Part shown: piece by piece, positions 6,361-55,761 of the stretch
Numbering within the stretch: the first letter of the stretch is position 1
How the letters are laid out: the number at the start of each line of letters is the position of its first letter
Made by a program: the position numbers and the translations under genes
The notes under the pieces: generated by a model
What the model was told of the DNA's origin: nothing
The model's input: the letters and a program-made list of their open reading frames with translations, nothing else
The model's database searches: none
From: Prevotella sp.
GTDB taxonomy: Bacteria > Bacteroidota > Bacteroidia > Bacteroidales > Bacteroidaceae
Length of the DNA: 64,000 bases
Reading direction: 5' to 3'
Assembly: GCA_017623155.1 (NCBI GenBank)
Contig: JAGAPR010000001.1
Location: 124,001 to 188,000 of the forward strand

Positions 6361-6795
6361 ATAAATAAAGTGTCAATATTTATTATGTTAACGTCGCTGA
6401 GAATCGATTCTTTTCCAAGAAAAAATTTTTTTGGCGCAAATACGCGAATTATGAGACACTTCGTGTAAATAACTGTATATCAAAAGAATACAGAGGTTTA
6501 AGCCGTTTTTGAATGCCTCAAAATCCGTCTTGTTTTCCAATTAGGCCGTAATTGCATTCCAATTACGGCCTAATTGGACGCTCGTTAGGCCGTAAATGCA
6601 ATGCAATTACGGCCTTATTGCAAGGCAAAAATGTACGAAAAGGAGAAAATGTCGACATATAATTGTTTATGAATATTAAATAATCGACTTTTAAGTTAAA
6701 TATTTTAAGTTAATAAAACCTACTTTGAGTGTTTTGTTTTGTTGCGACTTTTTACTGTCGCTTCACATATTTTAAGTTAAATGCGAAGCTGAAAT
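6361..6795. repeat. Dispersed 435-bp intergenic element, copy A
   Basis: Nearly collinear with 28283-28716. Shared blocks include ATAAATAAAGTGTCAA, TATTATGTTAACGTCGCTGA, CGCAAATACGCGAATTATGA, CCGTTTTTGAATGCCT, the 88-bp four-unit array, and three TTTTAAGTTAA boxes at the right end. The array begins 176 bp from the left end in both copies. CATCT-rich heptamers precede both (6295-6335 here). It occupies the middle of the 1.1-kb gene-free stretch 6148-7265. The rest of that stretch holds the pepP promoter, a possible antitoxin-gene remnant at 6920 and the ffh promoter. Confidence 0.85.
6537..6624. repeat. Four-unit 22-bp palindromic array, class 1 (copy A)
   Basis: Units at 6537-6558, 6559-6580, 6581-6602 and 6603-6624. 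The asymmetric core alternates GGCCG, CGGCC, GGCCG, CGGCC. Units 1 and 2 form a perfect 18-bp hairpin: arm CCAATTAGGCCGTAATTG at 6537-6554 pairs with 6560-6577 around a 5-nt loop. Units 3 and 4 pair over AGGCCGTAA/TTACGGCCT (6587-6595, 6607-6615). No T-run follows either hairpin. Confidence 0.9.
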
Positions 6796-6919
6796 CTTAA
6801 AAGCAAATTCTCGTGCAGCGTGCCCAAATGCAGATATCCACTTTTGTAATGATATTATAAATCAAAACAATTTCCATAGATTTTCTACTGAGCCGAAAAA
6901 AATAAATGGAGGTGACAAT

Positions 6920-6967
6920 ATGACAACGATGCAACTGAATGCCGAGATTTACCGCAGTCTGGGGTGA
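6920..6967 (+). pseudogene. Remnant of a small antitoxin-like gene
   Basis: A strong Shine-Dalgarno (GGAGGTGA, 6908-6915) precedes an ATG whose 15 codons read MTTMQLNAEIYRSLG before a TGA. From memory this resembles the N-terminus of short Bacteroidales proteins encoded before RelE-type toxins (pattern MTT-ELNAE-R-L-IA-DE). Continuing in another frame, VIA is readable at 6964-6972, as expected after a one-base loss. No toxin gene follows. Read as a decayed fragment; it could also be a chance micro-ORF. Confidence 0.3.
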
Positions 6968-7222
6968 TAGCCATTATGACGACCATTGACAGCAATAAAT
7001 CGATTTTTCTTTTTGATAATAAGTCCGTCTTTATGCATGCGCCATCAATGACGGGTTATTTGTAGTGTTTTGGTAAGAAAAAACGAATATTCTTGCCGTT
7101 ACACGGCTTTGTCCGTTGTTTTTTTTGCACACAGTAGTAATGATGTGCGCAATTTGGGCTGCAAACGTTTTAAAATAGTTTAAAACACAGATAACTTATT
7201 CGTTTTTTCTGATAATATAGCG

Positions 7223-7230
7223 TACTTTTG
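7223..7230 (+). promoter_or_regulatory. -7 box of ffh
   Basis: TACTTTTG followed by C matches TAnnTTTG. A weak TTCG sits 20 bp upstream in the -33 position. The box ends 35 bp before the ffh ATG. Confidence 0.6.
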
Positions 7231-7265
7231 CAGGATAAAGTAATAATAACGACACATTAATATAT

Positions 7266-8627
7266 ATGTTTGAAAATTTAAGCGACAGACTTGAACGCTC
7301 GTTCAAAATCCTCAAAGGCGAGGGCAAAATCACTGAAATCAATGTTGCGGAAACGCTCAAAGACGTGCGAAGGGCATTGCTCGATGCCGACGTAAACTAT
7401 AAGGTTGCGAAGACTTTTACCGACACGGTGAAGAAGAAAGCTCTGGGTATGAACGTGCTCACGGCCGTGAAACCGAGCCAATTGATGGTGAAAATTGTGC
7501 ACGACGAGCTTACGGAACTTATGGGCGGAACGGCGGCAGAGCTGAAACTCGAAGGCCGTCCGGCGATAATCCTCATGTCGGGACTTCAAGGCTCGGGTAA
7601 GACAACGTTCAGCGGCAAACTCGCCAACATGTTAAAGACCAAAAACCGCAAGAACCCTTTGCTCGTGGCTTGCGACGTCTATCGTCCTGCTGCCATCGAA
7701 CAGCTTAAAGTCGTTGGTCAGACAGTGGGTGTGCCGGTATATACCGAGCCGGAAAACAAGAATGTGGTAGAGATTGCCGCCAACGCCATCAAAGAGGCAA
7801 AAGCAAAAGGCAACGATGTGGTAATCATCGATACCGCCGGCCGACTGGCTGTCGACGAGGAGATGATGAACGAGATAGAGACGCTGAAAAATGCCGTCAA
7901 CCCCGACGAGACACTGTTTGTCGTAGACTCGATGACAGGTCAGGACGCGGTGAACACGGCCAAGGAGTTTAACGACCGTCTCGACTTCGACGGCGTGGTG
8001 CTCACCAAGCTCGACGGCGATACACGCGGCGGTGCGGCTCTCTCGATACGCACGGTGGTGACAAAGCCTATCAAGTTTGTCGGTACGGGCGAGAAAATGG
8101 AAGCTCTTGATGTGTTCCATCCCGAACGAATGGCCGACCGTATTCTCGGAATGGGCGATATTGTGAGTCTCGTTGAGCGTGCTCAGGAGCAGTTTGACGA
8201 GAAGCAGGCCAAGGAGTTGGAGAAGAAAATACGCAAGAACCAGTTTGACTTCAACGACTTCATGAACCAAATCCAGCAGATAAAGAAGATGGGTAACATC
8301 AAGGATCTTGCGGCCATGATACCGGGAGTGGGCAAGGCAATAAAGGATGTTGACATAGATGACGACGCGTTCAAAGGAATTGAAGCCATTATCAACAGTA
8401 TGACTCCGAAAGAGCGTTCCAATCCCGATATAATCAATCAAAGCCGCCGCATGCGTATAGCGAAAGGCTCGGGCACAAACATTCAGGAAGTAAACCGCCT
8501 GCTGAAGCAGTTTGACCAGACCCGCAAGATGATGAAAATGGTGGCCGGCACATCCAACAGCAAGATGATGCAGATGGCAAATGCCATGCGGAAAATGAAA
8601 GGAATGCCCGGCATGCCTAAAATGTAA
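7266..8627 (+). CDS. ffh: Signal recognition particle GTPase Ffh
   Basis: 453-residue SRP54 protein that binds 4.5S RNA and signal sequences and delivers nascent membrane proteins to FtsY. N-terminal helical bundle (1-90), then the SRP GTPase with G1 GLQGSGKTT (about 107), DTAGRLAVDEE and TKLDGDTRGG. The C-terminal M domain is methionine-rich and ends in RKMMKMVAGTSNSKMMQMA. Standard length. First gene after the promoter at 7223; folD follows after 78 bp that contain a heptamer tandem repeat. Confidence 0.98.
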   Translation: MFENLSDRLERSFKILKGEGKITEINVAETLKDVRRALLDADVNYKVAKTFTDTVKKKALGMNVLTAVKPSQLMVKIVHDELTELMGGTAAELKLEGRPAIILMSGLQGSGKTTFSGKLANMLKTKNRKNPLLVACDVYRPAAIEQLKVVGQTVGVPVYTEPENKNVVEIAANAIKEAKAKGNDVVIIDTAGRLAVDEEMMNEIETLKNAVNPDETLFVVDSMTGQDAVNTAKEFNDRLDFDGVVLTKLDGDTRGGAALSIRTVVTKPIKFVGTGEKMEALDVFHPERMADRILGMGDIVSLVERAQEQFDEKQAKELEKKIRKNQFDFNDFMNQIQQIKKMGNIKDLAAMIPGVGKAIKDVDIDDDAFKGIEAIINSMTPKERSNPDIINQSRRMRIAKGSGTNIQEVNRLLKQFDQTRKMMKMVAGTSNSKMMQMANAMRKMKGMPGMPKM

Positions 8628-8640
8628 CATCTCCCATTTT

Positions 8641-8694
8641 ACATCTGACATCTGACATCTGACATCTGACATCTAACATCTAACATCTAACATC
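8641..8694. repeat. 7-bp tandem repeat (ACATCTG/ACATCTA) between ffh and folD
   Basis: Four ACATCTG units (8641-8668), three ACATCTA units (8669-8689) and a partial ACATC (8690-8694). It begins 14 bp after the ffh stop and ends 11 bp before the folD ATG, next to the likely ribosome site AAAGGA. Related, less regular CATCT runs occur at 6295-6335 and 28232-28264. Confidence 0.95.
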
Positions 8695-8705
8695 GAAAAA
8701 GGACT

Positions 8706-9584
8706 ATGCAACTTATAGACGGAAAGGCAACCGCAGCCAAGATAAAAGAAGAGATAGCGGAAGAAGTGAAAACAATCGTTGACGCAGGAGGCAAGCGCCC
8801 GCATCTCGCTGCCGTTCTCGTGGGACATGACGGCGGCTCGGAGACATACGTAAAGAACAAGGTATTGGCCTGCGAAGCCTGCGGGTTTAAGTCAACGCTT
8901 ATACGATTTGAAGACAATATCACCGAGGCGGAACTGTTGGAATGTGTGAATAAGCTGAACAACGATGACGATGTGGACGGCTTTATCGTGCAGTTGCCGT
9001 TGCCGAAGCATATCAACGAGCAGAAGATAATAGAGGCGATAGACTACCGTAAGGATGTGGACGGATTTCATCCGATAAACGTCGGGCGCATGGCTATCGG
9101 CCTGCCGTGCTTCATCTCGGCCACTCCGCTCGGCATAATAACCCTGTTGAAGCGCTACGGAATAGAGACAAGCGGCAAGAAGTGCGTGGTGCTCGGCCGC
9201 TCAAACATTGTCGGCAAGCCGATGGCTCAGCTGATGATGCAGAAGCAATATGGCGACGCCACAGTGACAGTGTGCCACAGCCGCTCGCAAAATATTAAAG
9301 AAGAATGCCGTCAGGCCGATATCATCATCGCCGCAATCGGTCGTCCCGACTTTGTTACGGCCGACATGGTAAAGGAAGGAGCGGTGATTGTCGACGTGGG
9401 AACGACACGTGTTCCCGACGCATCGCGCAAGAGCGGATTTCGTCTTAACGGCGATGTGAAGTTCGACGAGGTAGCCCCCCGATGCTCGTTCATCACTCCC
9501 GTGCCCGGCGGTGTTGGCCCGATGACAATCTGCTCGCTGATGAAGAACACATTGGCGGCAGGCAAGAAAGAGTACTATAAGTAA
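8706..9584 (+). CDS. folD: Bifunctional methylenetetrahydrofolate dehydrogenase/cyclohydrolase FolD
   Basis: 292-residue cytoplasmic enzyme converting 5,10-methylene-THF to 10-formyl-THF with NADP, supplying one-carbon units. Visible motifs: [14 protein letters not shown] with the catalytic Lys, [30 protein letters not shown] of the dinucleotide fold, and [10 protein letters not shown] near the C-terminus. Length is typical. The ATG follows AAAAAGGACT directly after the heptamer array. The TPR micro-protein begins at the base after its stop codon. Confidence 0.97.
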
Positions 9585-9764
9585 ATGAAGAGTGAAGACT
9601 ATTACGAGACAGGCAACCGTTTTCGCCGCGAAGGAAACTGGCAAGAGGCCATAAACAATTACACCATTGCCATCTCTCTCGACCCCGACAGCCCTGCTGT
9701 CGAGGCGAAACGTATGCTCGAAGATATATTGAACTATTATAATAAGGACATGTATAATCCTTGA
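9585..9764 (+). CDS. 59-residue tetratricopeptide-like micro-protein
   Basis: Small ORF whose ATG directly abuts the folD TAA. It reads MKSEDYYETGNRFRREGNWQ followed by EAINNYTIAISLDPDSPAVE and a helical tail. Residues 7-38 fit a single TPR motif (G8-N-x-x-A-Y-Y-A-P pattern, ending in LDPDSP). The match to a TPR, the tight spacing and its position just before the ferredoxin-oxidoreductase genes support it as real. A single TPR plus capping helix suggests a protein-protein adaptor, perhaps for the oxidoreductase subunits; that role is inference. Confidence 0.7.
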   Translation: MKSEDYYETGNRFRREGNWQEAINNYTIAISLDPDSPAVEAKRMLEDILNYYNKDMYNP

Positions 9765-9830
9765 TTCATCGTAGGGCGGATTATTATAATATCGTGATGG
9801 ATATTCCTGTAATGATAAAAAGACAAGTTT

Positions 9831-10064
9831 ATGAGTAAGATTATTGGCGCAGTCGTGGTTGATACCGGGCATTGCAAAGGCTGTTCACTATGTGTGGAGG
9901 CCTGCCCGAAAGATGTTATAGCCATGGCAAGCAAGGTAAATGTCAACGGTTATCCGTATGTTGAGGTTGTCAACGGAACCGAATGTATTGGTTGTGCGGC
10001 CTGTGGGATAGTGTGTCCCGACGGATGTATAACCGTTTACAGGAAAAAGACGGAGGAGGAATAA
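9831..10064 (+). CDS. 4Fe-4S ferredoxin subunit of 2-oxoacid:ferredoxin oxidoreductase (delta)
   Basis: 77 residues with two [4Fe-4S] motifs: CKGCSLCVEACPKD and CIGCAACGIVCPDG. It carries electrons from the ThDP-dependent core to free ferredoxin. Stop and the alpha-subunit ATG are 4 bp apart, so the two are translationally coupled. This is the delta-type subunit of four-subunit VorABCD/KorABCD enzymes. Confidence 0.92.
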   Translation: MSKIIGAVVVDTGHCKGCSLCVEACPKDVIAMASKVNVNGYPYVEVVNGTECIGCAACGIVCPDGCITVYRKKTEEE

Positions 10065-10068
10065 GACT

Positions 10069-11151
10069 ATGGCAGAACAGGAAGTGACACTGATGAAAGG
10101 CAACGAGGCTATCGCCCGTGCCGCAATCCGTTGCGGAGTAGACGGTTATTTCGGCTATCCGATAACGCCGCAGAGTGAGATTATAGAGACGTTCGCGCTC
10201 GACAAACCATGGGAAACGACCGGAATGGTAGTGGTGCAGGCCGAAAGTGAGGTGGCATCCATAAACATGGTATATGGTGCTGCCGGTGCCGGTAAGCGTG
10301 CGTTCACGTCATCTTCGAGTCCGGGCGTGGCTCTGATGCAGGAAGGCATAGCTTATATGGCTGGTGCTGAGATACCCGGCGTGGTGGTCAACGTGCAGCG
10401 TGGAGGTCCCGGATTGGGAACAATACAACCCTCGCAGAGCGATTATTTTCAGGCCACCCGCGGCGGAGGTAACGGTGACTACAATGTTATCGTGCTCGCT
10501 CCGGCTTCGGTTCAGGAGATGGCCGACTTCGTAGAGCTTGCTTTCGACCTCGCTTTCAAATACCGTAATCCGGCAATGATACTCAGCGACGGAGTGATAG
10601 GGCAGATGATGGAGAAAGTCGTTCTGCCGCCATACAAGCCACGCCGCACGGAGGAGGAGATACGCAGGGAATGTCCTTGGGCGACAATGGGACGACCGAA
10701 AGACCGCAAGCCCAATATCATGACTTCGCTCGAATTGCGCCCCGAAGCCATGGAAGAGCATAATATACATCTGCAAAAGAAGTATGCGGAGATATGTGAA
10801 AAGGAAGTTCGTTACGAAACGATTTTCTGCGACGATGCCGATTATGTGATAGTTGCGTTCGGAAGTGCGGCGCGACTTGCCCAGAAAGCCATTGCCATGG
10901 CCCGCGAGGAAGGGTTGAAAGTAGGGCTTTTCAGGCCGATAACACTGTGGCCTTTCCCCGAAAAGGAGATTGCGCGGCTGGCAGCGGGTAAGAAAGGATT
11001 GCTCGTAGCCGAGATAAACGCCGGCCAGATGGTGCAGGATGTGCGTTTGGCCGTTAACGGAACGGTGCCGGTAGAGCACTATGGCCGTCTCGGCGGAATT
11101 GTTCCCGAGCCTCAGGAAATATTGGATGCGTTGAAGACAAAACTAAAATGA
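10069..11151 (+). CDS. vorB: 2-oxoacid:ferredoxin oxidoreductase subunit alpha (VorB type)
   Basis: 360-residue alpha subunit (pyrimidine-binding domain plus domain II). Motifs: GCDGYFGYPITPQSE-like segment GVDGYFGYPITPQSE near residue 24, QAESEVASINMVYGAAGAG, TSSSSPGVALMQEGIAYMAG, and the C-terminal FRPITLWPFPEKE. In anaerobic Bacteroidales this family is annotated as 3-methyl-2-oxobutanoate or 2-oxoglutarate ferredoxin oxidoreductase; sequence reading alone cannot fix the substrate. With ferredoxin, beta and gamma genes in line it makes a complete four-subunit enzyme that either oxidises 2-oxoacids to acyl-CoA or reductively carboxylates acyl-CoA. Confidence 0.93.
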   Translation: MAEQEVTLMKGNEAIARAAIRCGVDGYFGYPITPQSEIIETFALDKPWETTGMVVVQAESEVASINMVYGAAGAGKRAFTSSSSPGVALMQEGIAYMAGAEIPGVVVNVQRGGPGLGTIQPSQSDYFQATRGGGNGDYNVIVLAPASVQEMADFVELAFDLAFKYRNPAMILSDGVIGQMMEKVVLPPYKPRRTEEEIRRECPWATMGRPKDRKPNIMTSLELRPEAMEEHNIHLQKKYAEICEKEVRYETIFCDDADYVIVAFGSAARLAQKAIAMAREEGLKVGLFRPITLWPFPEKEIARLAAGKKGLLVAEINAGQMVQDVRLAVNGTVPVEHYGRLGGIVPEPQEILDALKTKLK

Positions 11152-11158
11152 CAGAGCG

Positions 11159-11935
11159 ATGAACGACGAAAAGAACAACAATATAATATCTCCCGAAAAC
11201 CTTGTATACAAGAAACCGGAGCTTATGAACGACACACCTATGCACTATTGCCCGGGATGCAGTCACGGGGTTGTGCATAAACTGGTGGCCGAGGTGATAG
11301 AAGAAATGGGCATGGAAGACAAGACGGTAGGAGTGAGTCCGGTGGGATGCGCCGTGTTTGCCTATCGGTATCTCGACATCGACTGGCAGGAAGCAGCTCA
11401 CGGTCGCGCTCCGGCCGTGGCCACGGGGATAAAGCGTTTGTGGCCCGACCGCCTCGTATTCACATATCAGGGCGACGGCGACTTGGCGTGCATCGGCACT
11501 TGCGAGACCATACATGCGCTCAACAGGGGAGAGAATATAGTGATAATCTTCATAAACAATGCCATATATGGTATGACGGGAGGGCAGATGGCTCCCACTA
11601 CTTTGATGGGACAGAAGACTTCCACATGCCCGTATGGGCGCACGGCCGAGCTGCACGGATATCCGCTTCGCATCACCGAGATGGCGGCACAACTTGAAGG
11701 TACGTGTTATGTTACGCGCCAAAGCGTGGACACTGTAGCTGCCATACGCAGTGCCAAGCGTGCCATCCGTAAGGCGTTCGACGCCTCGATGGCCGGCAAG
11801 GGCAGCTGTCTTGTTGAGATTGTGTCTACATGCAACAGCGGCTGGAAACTGTCGCCGGTGCAGGCTAACGAATGGATGCGCGAGAATATGTTTGAATACT
11901 ACAAGAAAGGAGATTTGAAAGACACTATCGGATAA
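11159..11935 (+). CDS. 2-oxoacid:ferredoxin oxidoreductase subunit beta (ThDP-binding)
   Basis: 258-residue subunit carrying thiamine diphosphate: the GDGDLACIGTCETIHALNRG-type motif runs on to IIFINNAIYGMTGGQ, the classic GDG-to-NN ThDP signature. CPGCSHG near residue 31 provides cluster-ligand or active-site cysteines. Starts 7 bp after vorB. Part of the ferredoxin-alpha-beta-gamma operon. Confidence 0.93.
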   Translation: MNDEKNNNIISPENLVYKKPELMNDTPMHYCPGCSHGVVHKLVAEVIEEMGMEDKTVGVSPVGCAVFAYRYLDIDWQEAAHGRAPAVATGIKRLWPDRLVFTYQGDGDLACIGTCETIHALNRGENIVIIFINNAIYGMTGGQMAPTTLMGQKTSTCPYGRTAELHGYPLRITEMAAQLEGTCYVTRQSVDTVAAIRSAKRAIRKAFDASMAGKGSCLVEIVSTCNSGWKLSPVQANEWMRENMFEYYKKGDLKDTIG

Positions 11936-11992
11936 GTTTTGCCGATGGCATGTCTTGTGGAAAAACTCTCCTTGAAACATAAATAAGGAAGC

Positions 11993-12535
11993 ATGGAAAA
12001 AGAGATTATAATAGCCGGTTTCGGTGGTCAGGGCGTGCTCTCGATGGGCAAGATACTGGCCTACTCGGGACTTATGGAAGATAAAGAAGTGACATGGATG
12101 CCGGCTTACGGCCCCGAACAGCGCGGTGGAACAGCGAATGTCACGGTGATTGTGAGCGACGAACGGATATCATCGCCCATTCTCAGTACATACGACATTG
12201 CGATAGTGCTCAACCAGCCGTCGCTCGACAAGTTTGAAAGCAAGGTGAAGCCGGGCGGCGTTCTCATCTACGACGGCTACGGAATTATAAATCCTCCGAC
12301 TCGAAAGGACATAACCGTGTATCGTATCGATGCCATGGACAAGGCGGCAGAGATGAAAAACGGCAAGATATTCAATATGATCGTGCTTGGCGGACTGCTT
12401 GAAGTATGTCCAGTGGTGAGCCATGCCGGCATAGAGAAAGCACTGTATAAGACATTGCCCGAGCGTCATCACGCGCTCATTCCGCTTAACATGCAGGCAC
12501 TGAAAGCCGGTGCGGAGATAATCGTCAAGTGCTGA
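11993..12535 (+). CDS. 2-oxoacid:ferredoxin oxidoreductase subunit gamma
   Basis: 180-residue gamma subunit (POR gamma/CoA-binding domain). N-terminal IIIAGFGGQGVLSMGKILAY, then WMPAYGPEQRGGTANVTVIV and NMIVLGGLLE are typical of VorC/KorC. It starts 57 bp after the beta subunit, a wider gap than elsewhere in the operon, and is followed by the strong terminator at 12546-12621. It is the last gene of the ffh-to-gamma co-directional run. Confidence 0.93.
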   Translation: MEKEIIIAGFGGQGVLSMGKILAYSGLMEDKEVTWMPAYGPEQRGGTANVTVIVSDERISSPILSTYDIAIVLNQPSLDKFESKVKPGGVLIYDGYGIINPPTRKDITVYRIDAMDKAAEMKNGKIFNMIVLGGLLEVCPVVSHAGIEKALYKTLPERHHALIPLNMQALKAGAEIIVKC

Positions 12536-12545
12536 TTGCAGGTGC

Positions 12546-12621
12546 AAACAAACTTGCGGATGCTGTGATTTCCTGTTGCCGGAAAGGCGAACGGCGGGAA
12601 ACGGCATCCGCAAGTTTGTTT
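12546..12621. terminator. Long-stem bidirectional terminator between vor operon and cobC
   Basis: Perfect 18-bp outer stem: arm AAACAAACTTGCGGATGC (12546-12563) pairs with 12604-12621. A 40-nt interior can fold further (TTGCCGG/CGGCGGG region). The arms end in A- and T-runs, so it can stop the vor operon and the convergent cobC gene. The large internal loop is unusual for a plain terminator. Confidence 0.8.
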
Positions 12622-12663
12622 TTATTTCACACTGTTTGGTTTAAACCGTGTATCTTTTTACTT

Positions 12664-13194
12664 TCAAACACTGATTTTCATAATGCCGCCGTATGGCACA
12701 AGATGCTTGAAACACTCGCTTTCGGGATATAAACCGCCGTATATCCCGGCGCACATCAGCACTCCGCCATGAGCGAACACGGCAATGCGCCCGTAGGCTT
12801 TTGTTCGCATTTCGTCGATGAAAGATGCCACACGGGCATATAATAAAGGAAAACTCTCGCCGTTTTTTGTAGATTTGTGCATGTAGTCGTCATACCATTC
12901 TTGCAGCTCTTTGTCCTTTATGTCGTCGAATTTGCGCATTTCCCAGTCGCCCATGTTCATCTCCTTAATCCTGCCATCGATACGGGGCGACCGGTAACCG
13001 CAGTATTCCGCCAGCTTGCGCGCCCTTGTAAGCGGCGAGGAGAACACGGCATCGAAATCGCCGTACTGTTCTAAATTCCGTTTCGTTGCCGCCGCTTCCA
13101 GCTCAAACGTGTCTGTGAGCGGCACATCGGTAGCTCCGTAACAAGTGCCTTTCGGCACGTCCACACTCGTGTGTCTTATGAGAATAATATCCAT
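12664..13194 (-). CDS. cobC: Alpha-ribazole phosphatase-like histidine phosphatase (CobC)
   Basis: 176-residue histidine phosphatase; catalytic RHT motif at residues 7-9 (MDIILIRHTSVDVPKGTCYG), SSPLTRARKLAEYCGY, EMNMGDWEMRKFDD and FAHGG near the C-terminus. The GTCYG-x-TDVPL segment is the CobC signature among these phosphatases. CobC removes phosphate from alpha-ribazole-5'-phosphate or adenosylcobalamin-5'-phosphate. I chose ATG 13194 over an upstream open extension because it begins the family N-terminus and a -7 box sits at 13221. cobU-cobT-cobS lie 1.6 kb away beyond the FucO-like gene. Confidence 0.8.
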   Translation of the reverse strand: MDIILIRHTSVDVPKGTCYGATDVPLTDTFELEAAATKRNLEQYGDFDAVFSSPLTRARKLAEYCGYRSPRIDGRIKEMNMGDWEMRKFDDIKDKELQEWYDDYMHKSTKNGESFPLLYARVASFIDEMRTKAYGRIAVFAHGGVLMCAGIYGGLYPESECFKHLVPYGGIMKISV

Positions 13195-13220
13195 ATCGTT
13201 CTTGTTCGCTTTAATGTATA

Positions 13221-13228
13221 CAAAGATA
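13221..13228 (-). promoter_or_regulatory. -7 box of cobC
   Basis: Minus-strand TATCTTTG, a full match to TAnnTTTG, 26 bp above the cobC ATG. Confidence 0.55.
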
Positions 13229-13288
13229 TACTGATTTTCTGATAAAACGGAAACGGAATGTGATTTTTTTCTTTTTATTACTGTGGTG

Positions 13289-13372
13289 TCACTTGGCCGA
13301 AGTAACATCGTTACAACGGCCAAATCACGATGTTATCCGAGTCAAGTAACGCTGTTACTTCGGCCGGGTAAC
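13289..13372. repeat. Four-unit 22-bp palindromic array, class 2 (fucO upstream)
   Basis: Units start at 13289, 13311, 13333 and 13355; the last is 18 bp. Unit 1 core is CACTTGGCCGAAGTAAC, unit 2 is inverted (ACAACGGCCAAATCAC), unit 3 is degenerate and unit 4 reads GTTACTTCGGCCGGGTAAC. The array fills the middle of the 305-bp cobC/fucO divergent spacer, 60 bp from the cobC -7 box and 81 bp from the fucO -7 box. Apart from the promoters nothing else is visible there. Confidence 0.85.
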
Positions 13373-13453
13373 ATTTCAAGTTGTGTTCTTCCGTGTTTAC
13401 AGCACGGTAATAATTCTTTTAAGGAAAAAGCAGGAAATGTCGAAAATTCTTTG

Positions 13454-13461
13454 TATATTTG
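13454..13461 (+). promoter_or_regulatory. -7 box of the FucO-like gene
   Basis: TATATTTG followed by C, 39 bp above ATG 13501. No clear -33 element. Confidence 0.55.
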
Positions 13462-13500
13462 CGAAATATTATCAAAACCTAAAACAAAAGAAGTATAATT

Positions 13501-28078: not shown

Positions 28079-28282
28079 CGATTTAAACTTTTATTTTGTT
28101 GATTAGTATCAATTTGTAATAATTTTGCTGTGTTTAATAAATAATTGAAATAAAACATTGCACTCTTGGTTTGAAAATGTGCAATAATCGTTGTTGTTTA
28201 TGGCTCATCCGATATTTCGAGTGACAGAATAACATCTCCCATCTAACATTTAACATCTCCCATGCTTTTTCGTTAAACAAAC

Positions 28283-28716
28283 ATAAATAAAGTGTCAAGA
28301 TATATTATGTTAACGTCGCTGAAAATCGTTTCTTTTTCACGAAAAATTTTTTTGACGCAAATACGCGAATTATGAAGCACTTCATGTAAATAGCTGTATG
28401 TCAGTTGAATATGGATTTTTTGGGCCGTTTTTGAATGCCTTAAAAATCGCCTTGTTTTCCAATTAGGCCGTAATTGCATTCCAATTACGGCCTAATTGGA
28501 CGCCCGTTAGGCCGTAAATGCAATGCAATTACGGCCTAATTGCAAGGCAAAAACGACCAAAACGGGGTGAAAGTCGGTGTATGATTGTTTACTATTGTTA
28601 AATAACCGACTTTTAAGTTAAATATTTTAAGTTAACAAAACCTACTTCGCGAAAATATTTTGTATCGACTTTTTACTTTTTGTTTACATGTTTTAAGTTA
28701 AATGCAAAGTTGAAAT
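28283..28716. repeat. Dispersed 435-bp intergenic element, copy B
   Basis: Second copy of the element at 6361-6795, same orientation, 434 bp, with the array at the same 176-bp offset and the three TTTTAAGTTAA boxes in the right part. Preceded by CATCT heptamers (28232-28264). It lies in the 858-bp spacer between divergent ilvD and the ECF sigma gene (28032-28889); the rest of the spacer holds only the two promoters. Confidence 0.85.
28459..28546. repeat. Four-unit 22-bp palindromic array, class 1 (copy B)
   Basis: Units at 28459, 28481, 28503 and 28525, with core orientation GGCCG, CGGCC, GGCCG, CGGCC as in copy A. Units 1 and 2 form the same perfect 18-bp hairpin (28459-28476 with 28482-28499). 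Units 3 and 4 pair at 28509-28517 and 28529-28537. Confidence 0.9.
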
Positions 28717-28811
28717 GTTAATCTGCATTATTCATGCACGAAACGTAGCCGTACGGATAGCATATCCGTCGATTTACAGAGCTAAAAGTTTATTACATAC
28801 TTATTTTTTTA

Positions 28812-36781: not shown

Positions 36782-36896
36782 CGGAATAAAATCGAGACAG
36801 GCAAGAAGTTTGGGAGTTAAGAAATTGGGGAGTTAAGAAGTTAAGTCGAATGCTTTTCAAGGGTCGTTGTGTGTCATTTGATTTTTCCCGGTTTTG

Positions 36897-36984
36897 TTAC
36901 ATGGTTCTTGTAACGTTGTTACTTGGCCGTAGTAACGATATTATTTGGCCGAGGTAACGTCATGATTTGGCCGAAGTAACATTT
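36897..36984. repeat. Four-unit 22-bp palindromic array, class 2 (DUF2461 upstream)
   Basis: Units at 36897 (degenerate, TTACATGGTTCTTGTAACG), 36919 (GTTACTTGGCCGTAGTAAC including the preceding G), 36941 and 36963 (ATTTGGCCGAAGTAAC). All carry GGCCG in the same orientation. Lies in the 339-bp divergent spacer between the patatin gene and the DUF2461 gene, 72 bp before the latter's -7 box. Otherwise that spacer contains only the promoters. Confidence 0.88.
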
Positions 36985-48688: not shown

Positions 48689-48726
48689 GTCAAATATGTT
48701 CGTGATAATAATACTAAATCAAATGA

Positions 48727-49923
48727 TTACAAGATGCTTGCCAATTCGGATACGATATCTTTCGCAACGGCTGTCTTTTCTTTCTTTTCAAAGTCTTTCC
48801 GGCCGTTTGCCGATATTATGCTTATTTGGTTCTCATCCGATTTGAAACACGTTCCTTCGTTTCGCAGAGAGTTCAAAACAATGAAATCAAGGTTCTTTCG
48901 TGACAGTTTTCGCTCCGCGTTTTCAGTCTCGTTGTTTGTTTCAAGCGCGAAGCCAACAACCCTTTGACCGCTTGTTTTCATTTTTCCAATCTCGGCGGCA
49001 ATATCGTGCGTGGGTTTGAGAACAATAGTGAGATTGTCTTTTTCGCGTTTTATCTTTGTCTCAGACATGTTCTCGGGGTGGAAGTCGGCCACCGCGGCGC
49101 ATAATATCGCGGCATCGCATTCCGGAAATTCGTTTGTCGCCGCGTTAAACATTTGTTCGCAACTTTCCACATCTATGCGTCTTATGTTCTTGTGATTTGT
49201 TTGCAATGCCACCGGCCCGGCCACAAGAACGACATCGGCTCCTCGGCGAGCGCACTCCTCTGCGAGCGCAAATCCCATCTTACCGCTTGAATAGTTGCCG
49301 ATAAATCTCACGGGGTCTATCTTCTCGTATGTAGGTCCAGCCGTTATCAAGATGCGCTTACCGCTCAGTTCTCCGGCGTTTTCGCAGAAGAATTCATCGA
49401 GTGCATTCACGATGTTTTCCGGTTCTTCCATGCGTCCTTTGCCTTCAAGTCCGCTTGCGAGAAAGCCTTTCTGCGGTTCGATGATATGGTTTCCGAACGA
49501 GCGCAGTCGCTCGATGTTCTGTTGTGTGGACGGATGTGCGTACATGTCGAGGTCCATTGCGGGGGCGATAAACACCGGTGCTTTCATCGACAGGTATGTT
49601 GTTATGAGCATGTTGTCTGCCACTCCGCCCGCCATTTTGCCTATTGTGGCAGCCGTGCAGGGTGCTATCAGCATGGCATCGGCCCATAGTCCGATGTCTA
49701 CGTGGCTGTTCCATGTTCCATCCCGTTGCGAGAAGAACTCGCTAATCACCGGTTTGTGTGTCAGGGCGGATAGGGTGATGGGGGTGATAAACTCCTTACC
49801 GGCAGGTGTTATTACCACCTGCACTTCCGCACCGCGCTTTATCAGTCCTCGGATTATATAGCAAGCCTTATATGCCGCTATCGAGCCTGTTATACCTAAA
49901 ACAATCTTTTTGCCTTTGAGCAT
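48727..49923 (-). CDS. coaBC: Bifunctional phosphopantothenoylcysteine synthetase/decarboxylase CoaBC
   Basis: 398 residues, two enzymes of coenzyme A synthesis fused. CoaC flavin decarboxylase domain (1-180): VLGITGSIAAYKACYIIRGL, active-site His in WNSHVDIGLWADAM and TIGKMAGGVADNM. CoaB synthetase domain (190-398): ITAGPTYEKIDPVRFIGNYS-type segment with SSGKMG, and FALETNNE, KNLDFIVLN. Six bp after the exonuclease gene. Confidence 0.97.
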   Translation of the reverse strand: MLKGKKIVLGITGSIAAYKACYIIRGLIKRGAEVQVVITPAGKEFITPITLSALTHKPVISEFFSQRDGTWNSHVDIGLWADAMLIAPCTAATIGKMAGGVADNMLITTYLSMKAPVFIAPAMDLDMYAHPSTQQNIERLRSFGNHIIEPQKGFLASGLEGKGRMEEPENIVNALDEFFCENAGELSGKRILITAGPTYEKIDPVRFIGNYSSGKMGFALAEECARRGADVVLVAGPVALQTNHKNIRRIDVESCEQMFNAATNEFPECDAAILCAAVADFHPENMSETKIKREKDNLTIVLKPTHDIAAEIGKMKTSGQRVVGFALETNNETENAERKLSRKNLDFIVLNSLRNEGTCFKSDENQISIISANGRKDFEKKEKTAVAKDIVSELASIL

Positions 49924-49929
49924 AATCTT

Positions 49930-50784
49930 TTATCTTAATTTGCTCTCGCGTAATCTTATTCGTGTGAGCACTTGTTTGGTGTTATAAGTGAAGTCTCCGC
50001 CAAGTATCCAGCTGTAATATCCCGGGTCGTAGCGCAGTACCGTGGCGACAGGCTCGCCCTTGTGTTTGCCGAAATTGAACACTTCAATCTTCTTGATGTT
50101 ACCGTCTTTGTCTTTAACCGGTTGCCCCTTGTTGTCTTTCATCTCGCCCCATACAATCCGTCCCGCAAAGTCCACATTGTTATTGTGGCGCGAGAAGTCG
50201 GCAAGGAAGTCCATATCGTTCGGCAGATGGCGCTCGGGGTCCGGTTCTGTCTCGGGGTTATACTTGTCGAGTTGCCCCATGAGCACCCGGTATGTAGCCT
50301 CGGTGTCTTGGTCGGCGCGGTGTGCTTCAAAATCGTCTTCCATCGCTCTGCCGCAGTAAAACTTGTAAGCTGCGGCCAGATTGCGGCGCTCCATCTTGTG
50401 GTATATGGCTTGTGCGTCTATGAGGCGGCATTTACTGAAATCGAAGTCGATGCCTGCGCGGAGAAATTCCTCGGCAAGCATCGGTATATCGAAGTGGTTT
50501 GAGTTGAAGCCGGCAAAGTCGCAACCTTTGAATTCCTCGCTGAGTGTTCCGGCGAGAGCCTTGAATGTGGGCTTGCCTTTCACGTCGTCATTGGTTATTC
50601 CGGTGAGTTCAGACACTTCTTTCGGAATATCTTTGCCGGGATTTACAATCTCGTTGTGTCTCAATTCCTTTCCGTCTGGAAAAACCTTTATGTACGACAG
50701 TTGTATGATGCGATCCTTAACCAAATCAAGTCCGGTCGTTTCGAGGTCGAAGACAATCAGCGGTTTTGTTAGTTTCAGCTTCAT
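49930..50784 (-). CDS. DnaQ-like 3'-5' exonuclease with C-terminal DUF3820 domain
   Basis: 284 residues. DEDDh exonuclease: Exo I IVFDLETTGLDLVKDRIIQL, Exo II FAGFNSNHFDIPML, Exo III EAHRADQDTEATYRVL. C-terminal 70 residues have VFNFGKHKGEPVATVL and YYSWILGGDFTYNTKQVL, the DUF3820 pattern. Located between dnaN and coaBC on one transcript, so it probably works as a replication or repair exonuclease alongside the clamp. It is not the polymerase III epsilon subunit in a strict sense. Confidence 0.92.
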   Translation of the reverse strand: MKLKLTKPLIVFDLETTGLDLVKDRIIQLSYIKVFPDGKELRHNEIVNPGKDIPKEVSELTGITNDDVKGKPTFKALAGTLSEEFKGCDFAGFNSNHFDIPMLAEEFLRAGIDFDFSKCRLIDAQAIYHKMERRNLAAAYKFYCGRAMEDDFEAHRADQDTEATYRVLMGQLDKYNPETEPDPERHLPNDMDFLADFSRHNNNVDFAGRIVWGEMKDNKGQPVKDKDGNIKKIEVFNFGKHKGEPVATVLRYDPGYYSWILGGDFTYNTKQVLTRIRLRESKLR

Positions 50785-50793
50785 TTCTTTTCT

Positions 50794-51918
50794 TTATTCG
50801 TTGATGAGCATTGGCATCATGAGCATTAGAACGTCTTGATTTTCCGGTTGTTCAGACGGCAGTACGACTCCGGCACGGCTCGGGTCGGCAAGTTGTATTA
50901 TTATCTCGGGACAGTCGAAATTGTTTAATACCTCGATGAATGAAGAGCCTTTGAACCCGATGCTCATCGGCTGTCCGTTGTATTCGCACGACATTTTTTC
51001 CGTAGCCGTTTTCGAGAAGTCGAAGTCTTCAGCGTCAAGTTGCAACGTTCCGTTTTCAACATGAAACCTTATCTGATTGCTGTAACCGTTTGAGAACGGC
51101 TGCACGCGGCGCAGTGCGCTGAGCAGAGACACTCTGTCGACTGTAAGCTGGTTGGGGTTGTTTTGCGGTATTACGGAGTTGTAGTTGGGATACCGACCTT
51201 CCGTCAGTCGGCAAATCACGATACCGTCTCCGTAGTTTATTTCGGCATTGCGCTCGTCAAATCTGATTGTCACGTCGCCGCCGTCCTTGCCGAGCAGGTT
51301 TTTCAACAGTGTGGCAGGTTTCTTGGGCATGATGAATGATGCCGGAGTGTCGCTCTTTATCGACAGTACGTTGTTGCGCACGAGCTTGTGTCCGTCGCTT
51401 GCCACGATTGAAAGACAGTCGCTCTTCAAGTCAAAGTATATACCGTTCATCACCGGGCGCAGCTCGTCTTGTGCCATGGCAAAGAGAGAACGGTTGATAT
51501 TGTCTGCCAATAAGTTGTTGGCTATTGTTATTGTGTGTGCGTCGCCGCTTATCTCCTGTGCTTTCGGAAATTCGTCGGCACTCTCAACCGGCAGCGAGAA
51601 CATACCGTTCTGATAGCTTATTCTCGCGATATTCTCCTGTTGGTTTACCTCGAATGTGATAGGTTGCTCCGAGAAACCTTTTACGGCTTCGAGCAGGTCG
51701 TGGTTGCCAACGGCGAAAGAACCGTTGCCGTCGCTTTCTATCAGCTCCATCGTGGTTTTCATCATGTTCTCGCTGTCTGATGCAGTGAGATACAGGATAT
51801 TGTCTTCTATCTCAAAAACGAAGTCCGAGAGAATTGGCAAAGAGTTCTTGCTGTTTATTACTCGTGACAGGGCGATAAGTTTGCTGCTGAGCGCAGTGCT
51901 TGATAATGTAAATTTCAT
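50794..51918 (-). CDS. dnaN: DNA polymerase III beta sliding clamp DnaN
   Basis: 374-residue ring clamp of three similar domains. N-terminal MKFTLSSTALSSKLIALSRV, middle RPVMNGIYFDLKSDCLSIVA-SDGHKL, C-terminal VLNNFDCPEIIIQLADPSRA and LMLMMPMLINE. First gene of dnaN-exonuclease-coaBC-porD-recN-TPR, with a consensus promoter. dnaA is not adjacent. Confidence 0.97.
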   Translation of the reverse strand: MKFTLSSTALSSKLIALSRVINSKNSLPILSDFVFEIEDNILYLTASDSENMMKTTMELIESDGNGSFAVGNHDLLEAVKGFSEQPITFEVNQQENIARISYQNGMFSLPVESADEFPKAQEISGDAHTITIANNLLADNINRSLFAMAQDELRPVMNGIYFDLKSDCLSIVASDGHKLVRNNVLSIKSDTPASFIMPKKPATLLKNLLGKDGGDVTIRFDERNAEINYGDGIVICRLTEGRYPNYNSVIPQNNPNQLTVDRVSLLSALRRVQPFSNGYSNQIRFHVENGTLQLDAEDFDFSKTATEKMSCEYNGQPMSIGFKGSSFIEVLNNFDCPEIIIQLADPSRAGVVLPSEQPENQDVLMLMMPMLINE

Positions 51919-51959
51919 GTGTATGTTTTATTTTTGTTTTTTACTTTTCATATTGACTA

Positions 51960-51991
51960 CAAAAATACAAAATTACTGTGGCAGGAGCAAA
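51960..51991 (-). promoter_or_regulatory. Full Bacteroidetes promoter of the dnaN operon
   Basis: Minus-strand TTTG (51988-51991), 20-bp spacer, TATTTTTG (51960-51967). The leader to the dnaN ATG is about 35 nt. Confidence 0.8.
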
Positions 51992-52084
51992 AATAATCGG
52001 CTAAAAGTTATACGATTTAAAACTATTTTTGTAATTTCGCAATCTCAAAGACATGAATACAATCATAAAATATATTTATAAATA

Positions 52085-52501
52085 ATGGAAATTACAGGAA
52101 GAATTATTGCCGTATTACCGGCAGCCAGTGGAACATCGGCACGCACGGGCAACCCTTGGATGTCGCAAGAGTATGTGTTGGAGACTCATGATCAGTATCC
52201 CCGTAAATGCTGTTTCCGCGTTTTTGGAGAAGATCGCATAAAGCAATTCAATATTCAGGCCGGTGAGGAAATTACGGTATCGTTTGACATTGACGCACGC
52301 GAATACAACGGACGCTGGTTTAACAGTATCAATGCTTGGGCCGTAAACCGCAATGTTCAGGCTCAGGCCGCTTCTCAGGATGGTGCTGCCGCACAACCGT
52401 TTATGGCTCAGCAGCCGGCTCAGGCAGCCCCGTCAGAAACACCATTCCCCCCGGCTCAGGACAATAGCGGCGAGGGTAGTGCCGACGACCTGCCTTTCTA
52501 A
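52085..52501 (+). CDS. DUF3127 family protein
   Basis: 138 residues. Residues 1-95 form a beta-rich OB-like domain: MEITGRIIAVLPAASGTSAR, GNPWMSQEYVLETHDQYPRK and ITVSFDIDAREYNGRWFNSI with NAWAVNR. The rest is a disordered Gln/Ala/Pro-rich tail ending GSADDLPF. The acidic -DDLPF end closely resembles the tail of single-stranded-DNA-binding proteins, which suggests DNA-associated partner binding. That is inference; the family is formally uncharacterised. Confidence 0.85.
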   Translation: MEITGRIIAVLPAASGTSARTGNPWMSQEYVLETHDQYPRKCCFRVFGEDRIKQFNIQAGEEITVSFDIDAREYNGRWFNSINAWAVNRNVQAQAASQDGAAAQPFMAQQPAQAAPSETPFPPAQDNSGEGSADDLPF

Positions 52502-52588
52502 GAAGAACAGGTGAGTGAAAGGAATGAATAATTCCGGGGTTTGAAGAAAAAACAGGAGTTGTTTTTAATTAGATAAAAGCACTTTTCG

Positions 52589-52630
52589 ACGCGAATAGCC
52601 GACCAAGTAACATTGGTCGGCTATTCGCGT
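52589..52630. terminator. Terminator between DUF3127 gene and feoB
   Basis: Perfect 17-bp stem: ACGCGAATAGCCGACCA (52589-52605) with 52614-52630, followed by TTTTTT. Confidence 0.92.
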
Positions 52631-52698
52631 TTTTTTATCATTGTTATCCTATAAAGCTCAAACTCCCGGCTTTTTCGTATGAAAAACTCGCCCATGCT

Positions 52699-55257
52699 TC
52701 ACGCATATCCGAGCAGTCTGCCCGTTTGATATACGGCTGCCGACACGAGCCATGCCAATGCCGTGGTGTATATGGCGGCAAAGAGTGCCCACCGCCATGA
52801 GCCGCTTTCGTTCTTTATTGCGGCTATCGTTGCTATGCAGGGGAAGTATATCAGCACGAAAAGCAGATAGCAGAATGCTATCAGCGGGGTTATTCCGTCG
52901 GCCGTCATTTTACTGTGAAGCTCGGTGTATCTTGCGTGGCTGTCCTCATTGTTGTCTTCGGCTACGCTGTCGTCTCCGCTGTAAAGCACGCCGAGGGTGG
53001 AGGCTACAATCTCTTTTGCGCCCACTCCCGCAATCAGTCCCACGTCGAGCCGCCAGTCGAAGCCCTGCGCGCGAAATGCCGGCTCGATGGTTTTGCCGAT
53101 GCGTCCGATGTAGCTGTGTTCCTGCTGTTGCTTCTTGTCGAGTCTGTCGTCGTGCGGGAAATATCCGAGTGCCCATACTATTATGCTCGCCACAAGGATT
53201 ATGTTACCCATTTTTTTGATATATTGCTTGCCTTTTTCCCATGTGTGCCGTCCGATAGCCTTTGCGGTGGGGAAGCGGTAGGGTGGCAGTTCCATTACGA
53301 ACGGGGTGTCTTCTCCTTTTATTATATATCGGCTGAGAACGCGGCTCACGACGACGGATAGCATTATGCCGATGGCATACAGTGAAATCATGATGAGGCT
53401 TTGGTATTTCACGGCGAAGAAAGTGCCGGTAATCATGATGTATATCGGCAGGCGTGCCGAGCAACTCATCATCGGCAGCACGAGCATTGTGATCAGTCGC
53501 GAGCGGCGGCTTTCTATCGTGCGTGTGGCCATTATTGCCGGTACGTTGCATCCAAATCCCATTATCAGCGGTATGAACGATTTGCCGTGAAGGCCCATCT
53601 TGTGCATCAGTTTGTCCATGATGAAAGCCGCGCGCGCCATGTATCCGGAATCTTCCATGAACGAGATGAAAGCATATAGAATGAGTATTTGCGGCAGAAA
53701 GACGATTACCGAGCCCACACCGCCGATAACACCGTCGATGAGCATGTCTTTCAACGCGCCGTCGGCAAGTGTATTGCCGAGCAAAATGCCAAGTGCCGCG
53801 ACACCTGTTTCTATCCAGTCCATCGGATATTGGCCGATGGAGAACGTTGTCTGAAACATGGCATAGAGCATCAGGAAGAACAGCGGGAAGCCGATGTACT
53901 TGTTTGTCACGATGCTGTCTATGAGATGTGTGGTCTGGTATGTGTCTTGTTTCTTGCCCTTTTCGTATTTCGCTTCTTGCAGCGCTCCGTGAATAAATCC
54001 GTATTTGGCATCCATTATTGCCGTCTCGGTATCCTCTTTTGTCTCTTCTTTTATCAGAGCGGCCTGTCTGTTCCGTATCTCTATTATTTTGTCTCCGTTG
54101 TGCAACGAGCGTGCGAGGAGTTCGGCCTCGGAGTCCATTTCGAGCAGTTTGATGGAGAGGTAGCGCGTGGAGTACTTATGGCGTATCTGCTCGTCGTCCT
54201 GCAACTCGGTCTTTATGGCTTCGATCGCGCTTTCTATCAGCCGTCCGTGATTGAGGTGTATGTGTCTGTAAACGCTGTTGTTGGGCCGTTTGCCGTGGGC
54301 AAAATCCTCGCTGTGGTTGCTTGCCGAGTCTTTACCGTATGTGTTGTGCCAGTTTTGTATGTCGGCGGCCACCTCGGGATTGATGTTTCCCTCTTTGTCG
54401 ATAAAGTCGACACCTTCGTACATGTTTATTATGATATGGAACAAGAGGTCTGTTCCCCGTCCGGTTTTAAACACCGTAGGTATCATCGGCACGCCGAAAA
54501 GCCGGCTCAGTGTTTGGTAATCGAGTTTGTCGCCGCGCTCTTCAAACTCGTCAAACATGTTCAGCGCGCACACCATTCTCAGGTGCATGTCGACAAGTTG
54601 TGTCGTGAGATACAGGTTGCGCTCTATGTTGCTGGCGTCTATTACGTTGATTATGATGTCCGGAGTCTGCTCTATAATCTGTTTTCTTACGTACAGTTCT
54701 TCGGGGCTGTATGCCGATAGCGAGTATGTGCCGGGCAGGTCTACGAGATTGAATTCATATCCCTCGAATTTGGCGAAGCCCTCTTTGGCGTCCACTGTTA
54801 CGCCGGAATAGTTTCCCACACGCTCATGAGCTCCCGACGCGAAGTTGAATAATGATGTTTTTCCGCAGTTTGGGTTTCCCACGAGTGCCACGTTGATTGT
54901 GCGTCGCTTGCGCATTGCCGCGTCGCGAAGCAGTTTGTCTTTGTGCGGCGGCTCGTCGTCGCAGCCGTTTGTCATCATCGTGGCCGGCTTGTTTTCGGGT
55001 GTATCGCCATTGGCGCTTGCCTTTAAAGCATCTTCTTCGGATATGATTTCTATCATGTCGGCCTCGTCGTGTCTCAGTGATACTTCGTAGCCCATGATTT
55101 TATATTTGACCGGGTCTTGCAGTGGGGCGTTGAGTAAAACTTCGACGATTTTTCCTTTTATGAAACCCATCTCGACAATGCGTTTACGGAAACCGCCATG
55201 TCCCAATACTTTTACTATTACACCCTTCTCGCCTGTTTTCAGTTCGGAAAGTTTCAT
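52699..55257 (-). CDS. feoB: Fused ferrous iron transporter FeoA-FeoB
   Basis: 852 residues. N-terminal FeoA SH3-like domain (1-75: LSELKTGEKGVIVKVLGHGG, MGFIKGKIVEVLLNAPLQDP), acidic linker, then FeoB G-protein (about 120-280: ALVGNPNCGKTSLFNFASG, DLPGTYSLSAYSPEE, NMFDEFEERG) and a polytopic membrane domain with Gate motifs (GCNVPAIMATRTIESRRSRL, LPMMSCSARLPIYIMI). Imports Fe2+ across the inner membrane. The fusion is usual in Bacteroidales. Monocistronic. Confidence 0.97.
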   Translation of the reverse strand: MKLSELKTGEKGVIVKVLGHGGFRKRIVEMGFIKGKIVEVLLNAPLQDPVKYKIMGYEVSLRHDEADMIEIISEEDALKASANGDTPENKPATMMTNGCDDEPPHKDKLLRDAAMRKRRTINVALVGNPNCGKTSLFNFASGAHERVGNYSGVTVDAKEGFAKFEGYEFNLVDLPGTYSLSAYSPEELYVRKQIIEQTPDIIINVIDASNIERNLYLTTQLVDMHLRMVCALNMFDEFEERGDKLDYQTLSRLFGVPMIPTVFKTGRGTDLLFHIIINMYEGVDFIDKEGNINPEVAADIQNWHNTYGKDSASNHSEDFAHGKRPNNSVYRHIHLNHGRLIESAIEAIKTELQDDEQIRHKYSTRYLSIKLLEMDSEAELLARSLHNGDKIIEIRNRQAALIKEETKEDTETAIMDAKYGFIHGALQEAKYEKGKKQDTYQTTHLIDSIVTNKYIGFPLFFLMLYAMFQTTFSIGQYPMDWIETGVAALGILLGNTLADGALKDMLIDGVIGGVGSVIVFLPQILILYAFISFMEDSGYMARAAFIMDKLMHKMGLHGKSFIPLIMGFGCNVPAIMATRTIESRRSRLITMLVLPMMSCSARLPIYIMITGTFFAVKYQSLIMISLYAIGIMLSVVVSRVLSRYIIKGEDTPFVMELPPYRFPTAKAIGRHTWEKGKQYIKKMGNIILVASIIVWALGYFPHDDRLDKKQQQEHSYIGRIGKTIEPAFRAQGFDWRLDVGLIAGVGAKEIVASTLGVLYSGDDSVAEDNNEDSHARYTELHSKMTADGITPLIAFCYLLFVLIYFPCIATIAAIKNESGSWRWALFAAIYTTALAWLVSAAVYQTGRLLGYA

Positions 55258-55278
55258 GTTTCGATTTGTAGTTTAATG

Positions 55279-55286
55279 CAAAAATA
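55279..55286 (-). promoter_or_regulatory. -7 box of feoB
   Basis: Minus-strand TATTTTTG, 21 bp above the feoB ATG; the -33 is unclear. I see no clear Fur site. Confidence 0.5.
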
Positions 55287-55492
55287 CAACAAATAATTTA
55301 CAACTTGGTTGCAAACGGTTTTAAAAAACACGTGAGTACCTAAAAATAATGATGTGTGGCGAGTTGTTTTCGCGTGATGACACAAAAGTGGGTATGATGT
55401 TGTGGTATTAAAGTGTTGTTGTAGGTTGGGAAAAAGTGTGAAAAGCTGTCTGTCGCAATATCATAATTTAGAATTTAACTTAATATCTATTA

Positions 55493-55673
55493 AAAATGTT
55501 AATATTTTGAGTTTGTTTTTACAAAATAAGGCCTCATAATTGCGTTCTTTTCAAAAAATAATTTCCTCGGCGAAAAAAACGCATTTTCAGAGCATTTTGC
55601 GTAAAGTGTTATCTGTCAGCTCTTTACCTGCAAAACTTACTTTCCGTACATCCCCTGCAACCCATCCTCATTT
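55493..55673. repeat. Degenerate left flank of dispersed element, copy C
   Basis: The 180 bp before the third array resemble the left part of copies A and B only weakly: a TTTTC-AAAAAATAATTTCC tract, GGCGAAAAAAACGCA, then GCGTAAAGTGTTATCTGTCAG in place of GTGTAAATAACTGTATATC. The spacer 55258-56124 (867 bp, feoB to secA) contains this, the array, two CTCCCC/GGGGAG palindromes and the secA terminator. No protein gene in it is convincing. Confidence 0.4.
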
Positions 55674-55761
55674 CCAATTAGGCCGTAATTGCATTCCAAT
55701 TAGGCCGTAATTGGAACGTAATAAGGCCGTAAATGCAATGCAATTACGGCCTTATTGCAGA
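55674..55761. repeat. Four-unit 22-bp palindromic array, class 1 (copy C)
   Basis: Units at 55674, 55696, 55718 and 55740, with core orientation GGCCG, GGCCG, GGCCG, CGGCC. Unit 2 is flipped relative to copies A and B, so units 1 and 2 are direct repeats and the 18-bp hairpin is lost. Units 3 and 4 pair better than elsewhere: ATAAGGCCGTAA (55721-55732) with TTACGGCCTTAT (55744-55755). Confidence 0.88.

Follow-up and report, generated by a model that had tools for sequence, protein, structure and literature searches.

The window, by which we mean the whole stretch of DNA that was analysed, is 64,000 nt long and spans positions 124,001-188,000 of the forward strand of contig JAGAPR010000001.1, from the Prevotella sp. 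assembly GCA_017623155.1. The genome to which it belongs (G000, the own genome below) is a 2.74-Mb draft in 104 contigs, 83.8% complete. Between ordinary genes, as called with Pfam support, lie five arrays, each of four palindromic units at a 22-bp step, all of them present as the original prediction had described. Three are of class A and lie on the + strand, at 6537..6624, 28459..28546 and 55674..55761, the last with its unit 2 inverted. The other two are of class B, at 13288..13372 on the + strand, with units of the form GTTAC-N9-GTAAC plus 3 bp, and at 36896..36980 on the - strand. The class A starts had been placed correctly, and both class B arrays begin one base earlier than had been supposed. 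The description of units without spacers is only roughly right, as a unit consists of an imperfect palindrome of ~19 bp and a 3-bp spacer. The GGCC centre attributed to every unit is found in all 12 class A units and in six of the eight class B units.

What had been overlooked is that the class A arrays are not naked, as each sits in the middle of a repeat of ~475 bp. The first copy of this dispersed repeat, element A, occupies 6327..6800 (+), with edges set by the consensus of 44 full copies; it begins with ATTTAACAT, ends with ATCTTAA, and lies between an aminopeptidase P gene (-) and ffh/SRP54 (+). Copy 2, at 28248..28721 (+), has the ends ATTTAACAT and ATGTTAA and separates ilvD (-) from an ECF-type sigma factor gene (+). 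The third class A core is carried by element A-prime, at about 55480..55954 (+), which has a different flank family of ~475 bp and lies between feoB and secA (both -). As for the class B arrays, the one at 13288 is bounded by a histidine-phosphatase-family gene (-) and an iron-containing alcohol dehydrogenase gene (+), and the one at 36896 adjoins a patatin-like phospholipase gene (-). The best protein identities of the alcohol dehydrogenase are to Prevotella sp. MGM1 (96%), an uncultured Prevotella (94%) and Xylanibacter rodentium (93%), which marks the host as a Prevotella in the broad sense of the genus. Heptamer-like repeats (ACATCTG, AACATCT) were also seen at 8627-8694 and 6295-6323 of the window, and similar runs occur just outside the left end of three other copies of element A (L175, L178, L183).

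Are the two arm classes members of one family? A covariance model built from class B arrays picked out these five places in the window and nothing else, and it matched the three class A arrays along the full length of the model (better-strand E values of 3e-5 to 5e-8). With class A recovered by a model of class B, the two classes are one family.

Copies of the arrays in the own genome

In the own genome we examined 91 array places, 55 of class A, 31 of class B and 5 of class C, and 90 of the 91 have four units. The core of the array at 6537 recurs at no fewer than 40 places among the own-genome matches listed. Loci of element A or A-prime number at least 56, all of them bearing the core: 41 are the 40 best listed genome matches together with window 55674, and 15 more, one of which is truncated where its contig stops, come from a left-flank search in which the best 40 of 56 candidates were scored and no copy without a core was seen. 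All 55 complete cores of class A measure 88 bp, with a mean pairwise identity of 0.92. Six of these 55 places (L011-L014, L021 and L028) lie 19-37 bases from contig ends, where near-identical overlaps make double counting possible; the remaining 49 cores are likewise 88 bp in every case. To judge from their identity the class A cores are young, so that their constant length may be a matter of mere descent.

The repeat around the class A core is non-coding and has sharp edges, both in pairwise matches and in the consensus of the 44 full copies. Mean column conservation is mostly 0.55-0.8 just inside the edges, with some blocks at 0.9 or more, and 0.3-0.5 outside them. In the way of terminal inverted repeats the element shows only short ends, TTTAACAT and ATGTTAA-like, and no clear target-site duplication was seen at the listed ends when these were read by eye. 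The A-prime flank family includes window 55674, L016 and L017, and its right part also occurs in L186 and L187. Unit 2 is flipped in 10 of the 55 class A cores, and flips of the spacer were also found. An ORF of 80 or more amino acids across the core is absent from 40 of 41 loci.

Class B is another matter. It has 31 loci (22 from the first searches, 7 found by the model and the 2 in the window), all with four units; because they were found by similarity to the window copies, with the register set by the half-site pattern, the set favours intact half-sites. The 24 loci first aligned show a mean pairwise identity of 0.71 without a single indel. Their flanks look unrelated, except in one duplicated pair (L062, L131), and their borders are clear, since internal units match at least 6 of 10 half-site positions and the flanking positions in register match at most 5 of 10. 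Class B is almost bare and old. A third arm class, class C (GTTACAAGGCCGTTGTAAC), is represented by five further loci, of which one has five units and the others four; these counts were made by eye in a 19-bp register (4, 5, 4, 4, 4), and a script gave 4, 4, 3, 4 and 3.

The arrays had been called intergenic, and this holds for nearly all of the loci whose surroundings were examined (41 of class A, 24 of class B); a predicted ORF runs over one core of class A and over one array of class B, and in a few cases an array and the end of an ORF overlap by 13-35 bases. Genes were called on both sides of 34 class A loci and are divergent at 17 of these, co-directional at 13 and convergent at 4, counts that stand without a baseline and come from a simple ORF caller that left 7 of 41 loci unresolved. 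The same caller gave 7 divergent, 12 co-directional and 5 convergent settings for 24 class B loci, shifted duplicates of the two class B arrays of the window being omitted. It does err: the surroundings of 28459 and 13288 were called co-directional, and the Pfam-supported genes there are divergent. No recurrent neighbour of the class B and class C arrays was found, in that none of the 25 commonest of 105 Pfam families occurs in more than 3 of 78 neighbouring ORFs, the 78 being what remained of 88 listed after 10 fragments or duplicates were dropped. A side observation is an RNase P RNA gene (L061, 2467-2833) that lies ~0.9 kb from one class B array.

Spacing and arms across the genus

The claim that the 22-bp step is kept while the arms change was borne out both within the own genome and across the genus. 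In an arm-free scan for four or more palindromic units, over 80 loci (939,550 bases) that were picked by the alcohol dehydrogenase gene and are not all Prevotella, 8 arrays were found at step 22, against 10 in total over the remaining 21 steps in the range 19 to 40, none of which had more than 2. The eight include one in Segatella copri (L206), and one, the L245 array with its dissimilar units, is probably due to chance. Two shuffles of the same 939,550 bases gave no array at step 22, and the array detector found none in 938,552 bases of Markov-shuffled sequence. A looser detector, whose output includes repeats of coding or plain tandem look, returned 20 arrays at step 22, and the remaining steps between 19 and 33 gave from 0 to 8 apiece.

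The number of units is less strict than the step. Among 83 arrays across the genus, 5 of them our own class C arrays, units numbered 3, 4, 5, 6 and 7 in 7, 32, 31, 11 and 2 arrays respectively, these counts being made by script and uncertain by one on account of an alternative 11-bp register. The expectation of exactly four units is therefore a rule of the own genome and does not extend to the genus; the 22-bp step is general, the unit count is not.

How widely is the family spread? Model R1, whose training set was the class B arrays of the own genome and nothing else, matched 18 of 119 other genomes of the genus and 1 of 197 others of the order. Model R2, built from 87 R1 matches (both strands counted) in 47 sources, matched 41 of 119 congeners and 1 of 118 others of the order; 15 of the 41 matched genomes had given sequences to R2, and without this overlap 26 of 104 match. 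The genus signal therefore stands on the R1 result and on the 26 matches among the 104 genomes outside the training set of R2. The extra-genus matches include a long tandem repeat (L270, in G248) and, in G198, two arrays of GTTGTAAT-type units (L309, L312) and a weaker match (L310). In the congeners the step remains 22 bp and the arms differ: GTAAT...ATTAC in G001, ATTACAAG...CTTGTAAT in G028, GCTAA...ATAGC in G091 and TAAAAG...CTTTTA in G138.

G029 and G062 contain short stretches identical to parts of the element A flank; in G062 an array of 22-bp step and other arms adjoins such stretches (L070), and in G012 one lies near a weaker match (L067). The arrays of G001 fall, by eye, into at least three flank families. 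Several dispersed repeats thus carry the array as a module. G029 has a repeat of ~500 bp with a shared flank piece and no clear array. It is dispersed (L064, L072, L074), contains the inverted repeat CTCATAACTCGCG...CGCGAATTATGAG, and a first look gave 72 candidates in that genome, of which the best 10 were scored.

Do the arrays stay at particular sites? A flanking ORF similar to one near an own-genome array was found for 1 of 19 arrays of G001, where flanks of only 500 bp were compared, and for 5 of 27 other congener arrays; by a hand estimate we judged this near chance, and sharing of neighbour genes across congeners was set aside. Prevotella sp. KH2C16 and Prevotella sp. oral taxon 376 do have an array at an orthologous site (L243, L244), which shows that arrays can persist; functional retention and an old insertion would fit this case equally well. 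Prevotella sp. MGM1, which is syntenic on both sides of window 13288, is without the array there, the gap not being a clean empty site.

Half-sites, possible host ownership and possible folding

A 22-bp palindrome period places symmetry axes every 11 bp, so that the half-sites of an array, about eight and alternating, all lie to one side of the helix. Among the 248 class B half-sites of the 31 loci, the commonest base at positions 1-5 (GTTAC) is found in 233, 238, 197, 245 and 207, at the inner positions 6-8 in 122, 106 and 149, and at position 9 in 224. Identity is thus 94-99% at positions 1, 2 and 4, 79-83% at 3 and 5, 43-60% at 6-8 and 90% at 9. The inner triplet is common to both half-sites of a unit in only 5 of 124 class B units, below the shuffle mean of 13.9, and the covariation score of single-unit hairpins in class B, 0.081, is no higher than in shuffles (0.081). 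Conserved half-sites, variable centres and the lack of covariation within units together suggest that a protein would read double-stranded half-sites rather than unit hairpins.

To whom might such a protein belong? One answer is that the arrays are binding sites owned by the host, for a nucleoid, segregation or global regulatory protein whose cooperative binding would fix the step and with which the arms would co-evolve. The contrast between half-sites and centres in the old class B copies is what one would expect of this, as are the array that two species share at one orthologous site, the ordinary and non-recurrent neighbours of class B and C, and the wide occurrence in the genus. On the other hand element A is a recently amplified repeat of ~475 bp with its own borders, the neighbours of congener arrays are mostly unshared, and R2, under strict filters, is without a match in 78 of 119 congeners. 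We regard host ownership as unlikely.

A second answer dispenses with the double helix, the arrays acting instead as folded nucleic acid, a long hairpin of RNA or single-stranded DNA that might serve as terminator, mRNA stabiliser or substrate of an HUH transposase of the REP/RAYT kind. The original prediction had listed a structured RNA as an alternative. Single units speak against it, as noted, and for the long hairpin of class B one test is positive and another is not. When unit 1 is paired with unit 4 and unit 2 with unit 3, covariation is 0.133 against 0.096 +/- 0.008 in shuffles (reached by 0 of 500), and cells changed on both sides number 36 against 25.3 shuffled (2 of 500); pairs with a two-sided change are not in excess (428 of 500). 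In the second test, matching of unit 1 with unit 4 over the 31 loci, 15 of 62 were found against a shuffle mean of 11.6, which is not significant. Pairing of neighbouring units shows no covariation in class B. Class A, which varies too little for the long-hairpin test, has none for the whole hairpin or for single units, and a marginal signal for neighbour pairing (48 of 500); two of the three class A arrays of the window are predicted to fold as one long hairpin and the third as two. The window has no Rfam match at gathering scores, and among 11 loci searched at E of 0.01 or less only RNase P, tRNA and a TPP riboswitch were found, all outside the arrays.

Y1 transposases are present in 72 of 120 genomes of the genus, and an array lies within ~1.5 kb of 5 of 30 Y1 loci fetched, one of the five being weak. 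The search that had been suggested, for a REP-associated transposase gene, gave no match to Y1_Tnp (PF01797, RAYT-type) in the own genome, an 83.8% complete draft, nor in the array-bearing, 99%-complete congeners G003, G012 and G026, and on this ground we dropped the REP/RAYT label for the own genome. In G101 and G062 (L155, L156) long repeats lie downstream of Y1 transposase genes and are followed by an array at 22-bp step; the long repeats themselves differ by eye from the 22-bp arrays. All told, a folded form as the working state of the arrays seems to us doubtful. A neutral origin, in which slippage and fold-back copying at palindromes would have made the arrays as minisatellites and selection would not act on their spacing, is very improbable: in-place inversion of units and spacers and a unit number that differs between species are in its favour, but 90 of 91 own arrays have four units, 24 class B copies are free of indels at 71% identity, and step 22 dominates the arm-free scan.

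A proposed mobile element with a phased core

We lean, with modest confidence, to the explanation that the arrays are the core of MITE-like dispersed elements of Prevotella sensu lato, and that they form a phased platform for a putative DNA-binding or mobilising protein. Dispersed copies, sharp borders, the strict 22-bp spacing, species-specific arms and the occurrence of one core in more than one flank family lead us to it. Element A is like a MITE in being short and non-coding, with many dispersed and sharply bordered copies. From the borders, the copy number, the unrelated sites and the absence of the array from the syntenic gap of MGM1 we infer mobility. In this explanation a putative oligomeric protein, which might be a transposase, a recombinase or an exploited host protein, would read the eight or so half-sites at one per ~11 bp. 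Protein and arms would change together, so that the spelling would drift between species with the spacing held, and the elements would probably be mobilised in trans by a candidate enzyme. Effects on neighbouring genes are possible and would be secondary.

A plasmid or phage origin was considered and set aside, as window positions 6310-6780 had no blastn match in either collection. The exact pattern of the class A core was absent from the viral contigs searched and also from the genome contigs, a set that may omit records close to the own genome. A GTAAC/GTTAC pattern occurs in 8 viral stretches, six of which (L284-L288, L290) have two GTAAC-N3-GTTAC units 22 bp apart; the six contigs are probably one phage group.

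How do the arrays compare with known systems? Iterons and the parS, Noc and SlmA sites lie about two helical turns apart or occur many times per chromosome and are bound cooperatively; they belong to a host or a plasmid and have a single conserved sequence, whereas the arms described here differ by species and sit in dispersed repeats. ERIC, Correia elements and RUP are imperfect palindromes of ~100 bp dispersed between genes, and to our knowledge they are not built of phased tandem units. In open-licence papers on palindromic or dispersed repeats in Prevotella or Bacteroidetes we found no such arrays described. Porphyromonas gingivalis, which belongs to the same order as Prevotella, has a MITE that invites comparison. 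This element, BrickBuilt, is intergenic and consists of tandem 23-nt repeats, variable in number, between a leader and a tail; it is regarded as mobilised in trans and is reported to have matches in P. gulae and a limited host range (PMC4596501). Our elements resemble it as intergenic elements with a tandem array of short repeats, and are set apart by a 22-bp rather than a 23-nt step, by units that are palindromic (the word 'palindrome' does not occur in the text of that paper) and, in class B, by arrays without leader and tail (PMC4596501). With REP and BIME sequences, the RAYT-associated repeats, the arrays share the character of short, high-copy intergenic palindromes (91 places in the own genome, 65 with surroundings examined) whose families differ between species; unlike these, they come with no Y1_Tnp found in the own genome and with a strict 22-bp phasing of mostly four units (PMC3733652). 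The GTAG/CGTC tag of such repeats is in neither the class A nor the class B consensus, read by eye on either strand; individual copies do have GTAG within a unit or GACG between two units, which may or may not be chance. The further nearest works are a resequencing study of P. gingivalis and a survey of candidate structured RNAs. The arrays are most likely a variant of the small dispersed intergenic elements, marked by fixed phasing and free arms.

A bolder form of the idea, which we hold only tentatively and think rather improbable, is an address system, in which an oligomeric DNA-binding protein that evolves fast would co-evolve with its arrays across the genome, each Prevotella species having its own arms, with the phasing held by the protein assembly and several kinds of mobile element carrying the array as a docking module.

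Prevotella and Segatella are common gut bacteria, and repeats of this kind break their assemblies, as the six class A copies near contig ends illustrate. A repeat family that keeps its spacing and not its sequence is unusual. It predicts a matching protein whose specificity would differ between species, and such a protein, if found, would link the evolution of a repeat to that of a protein.
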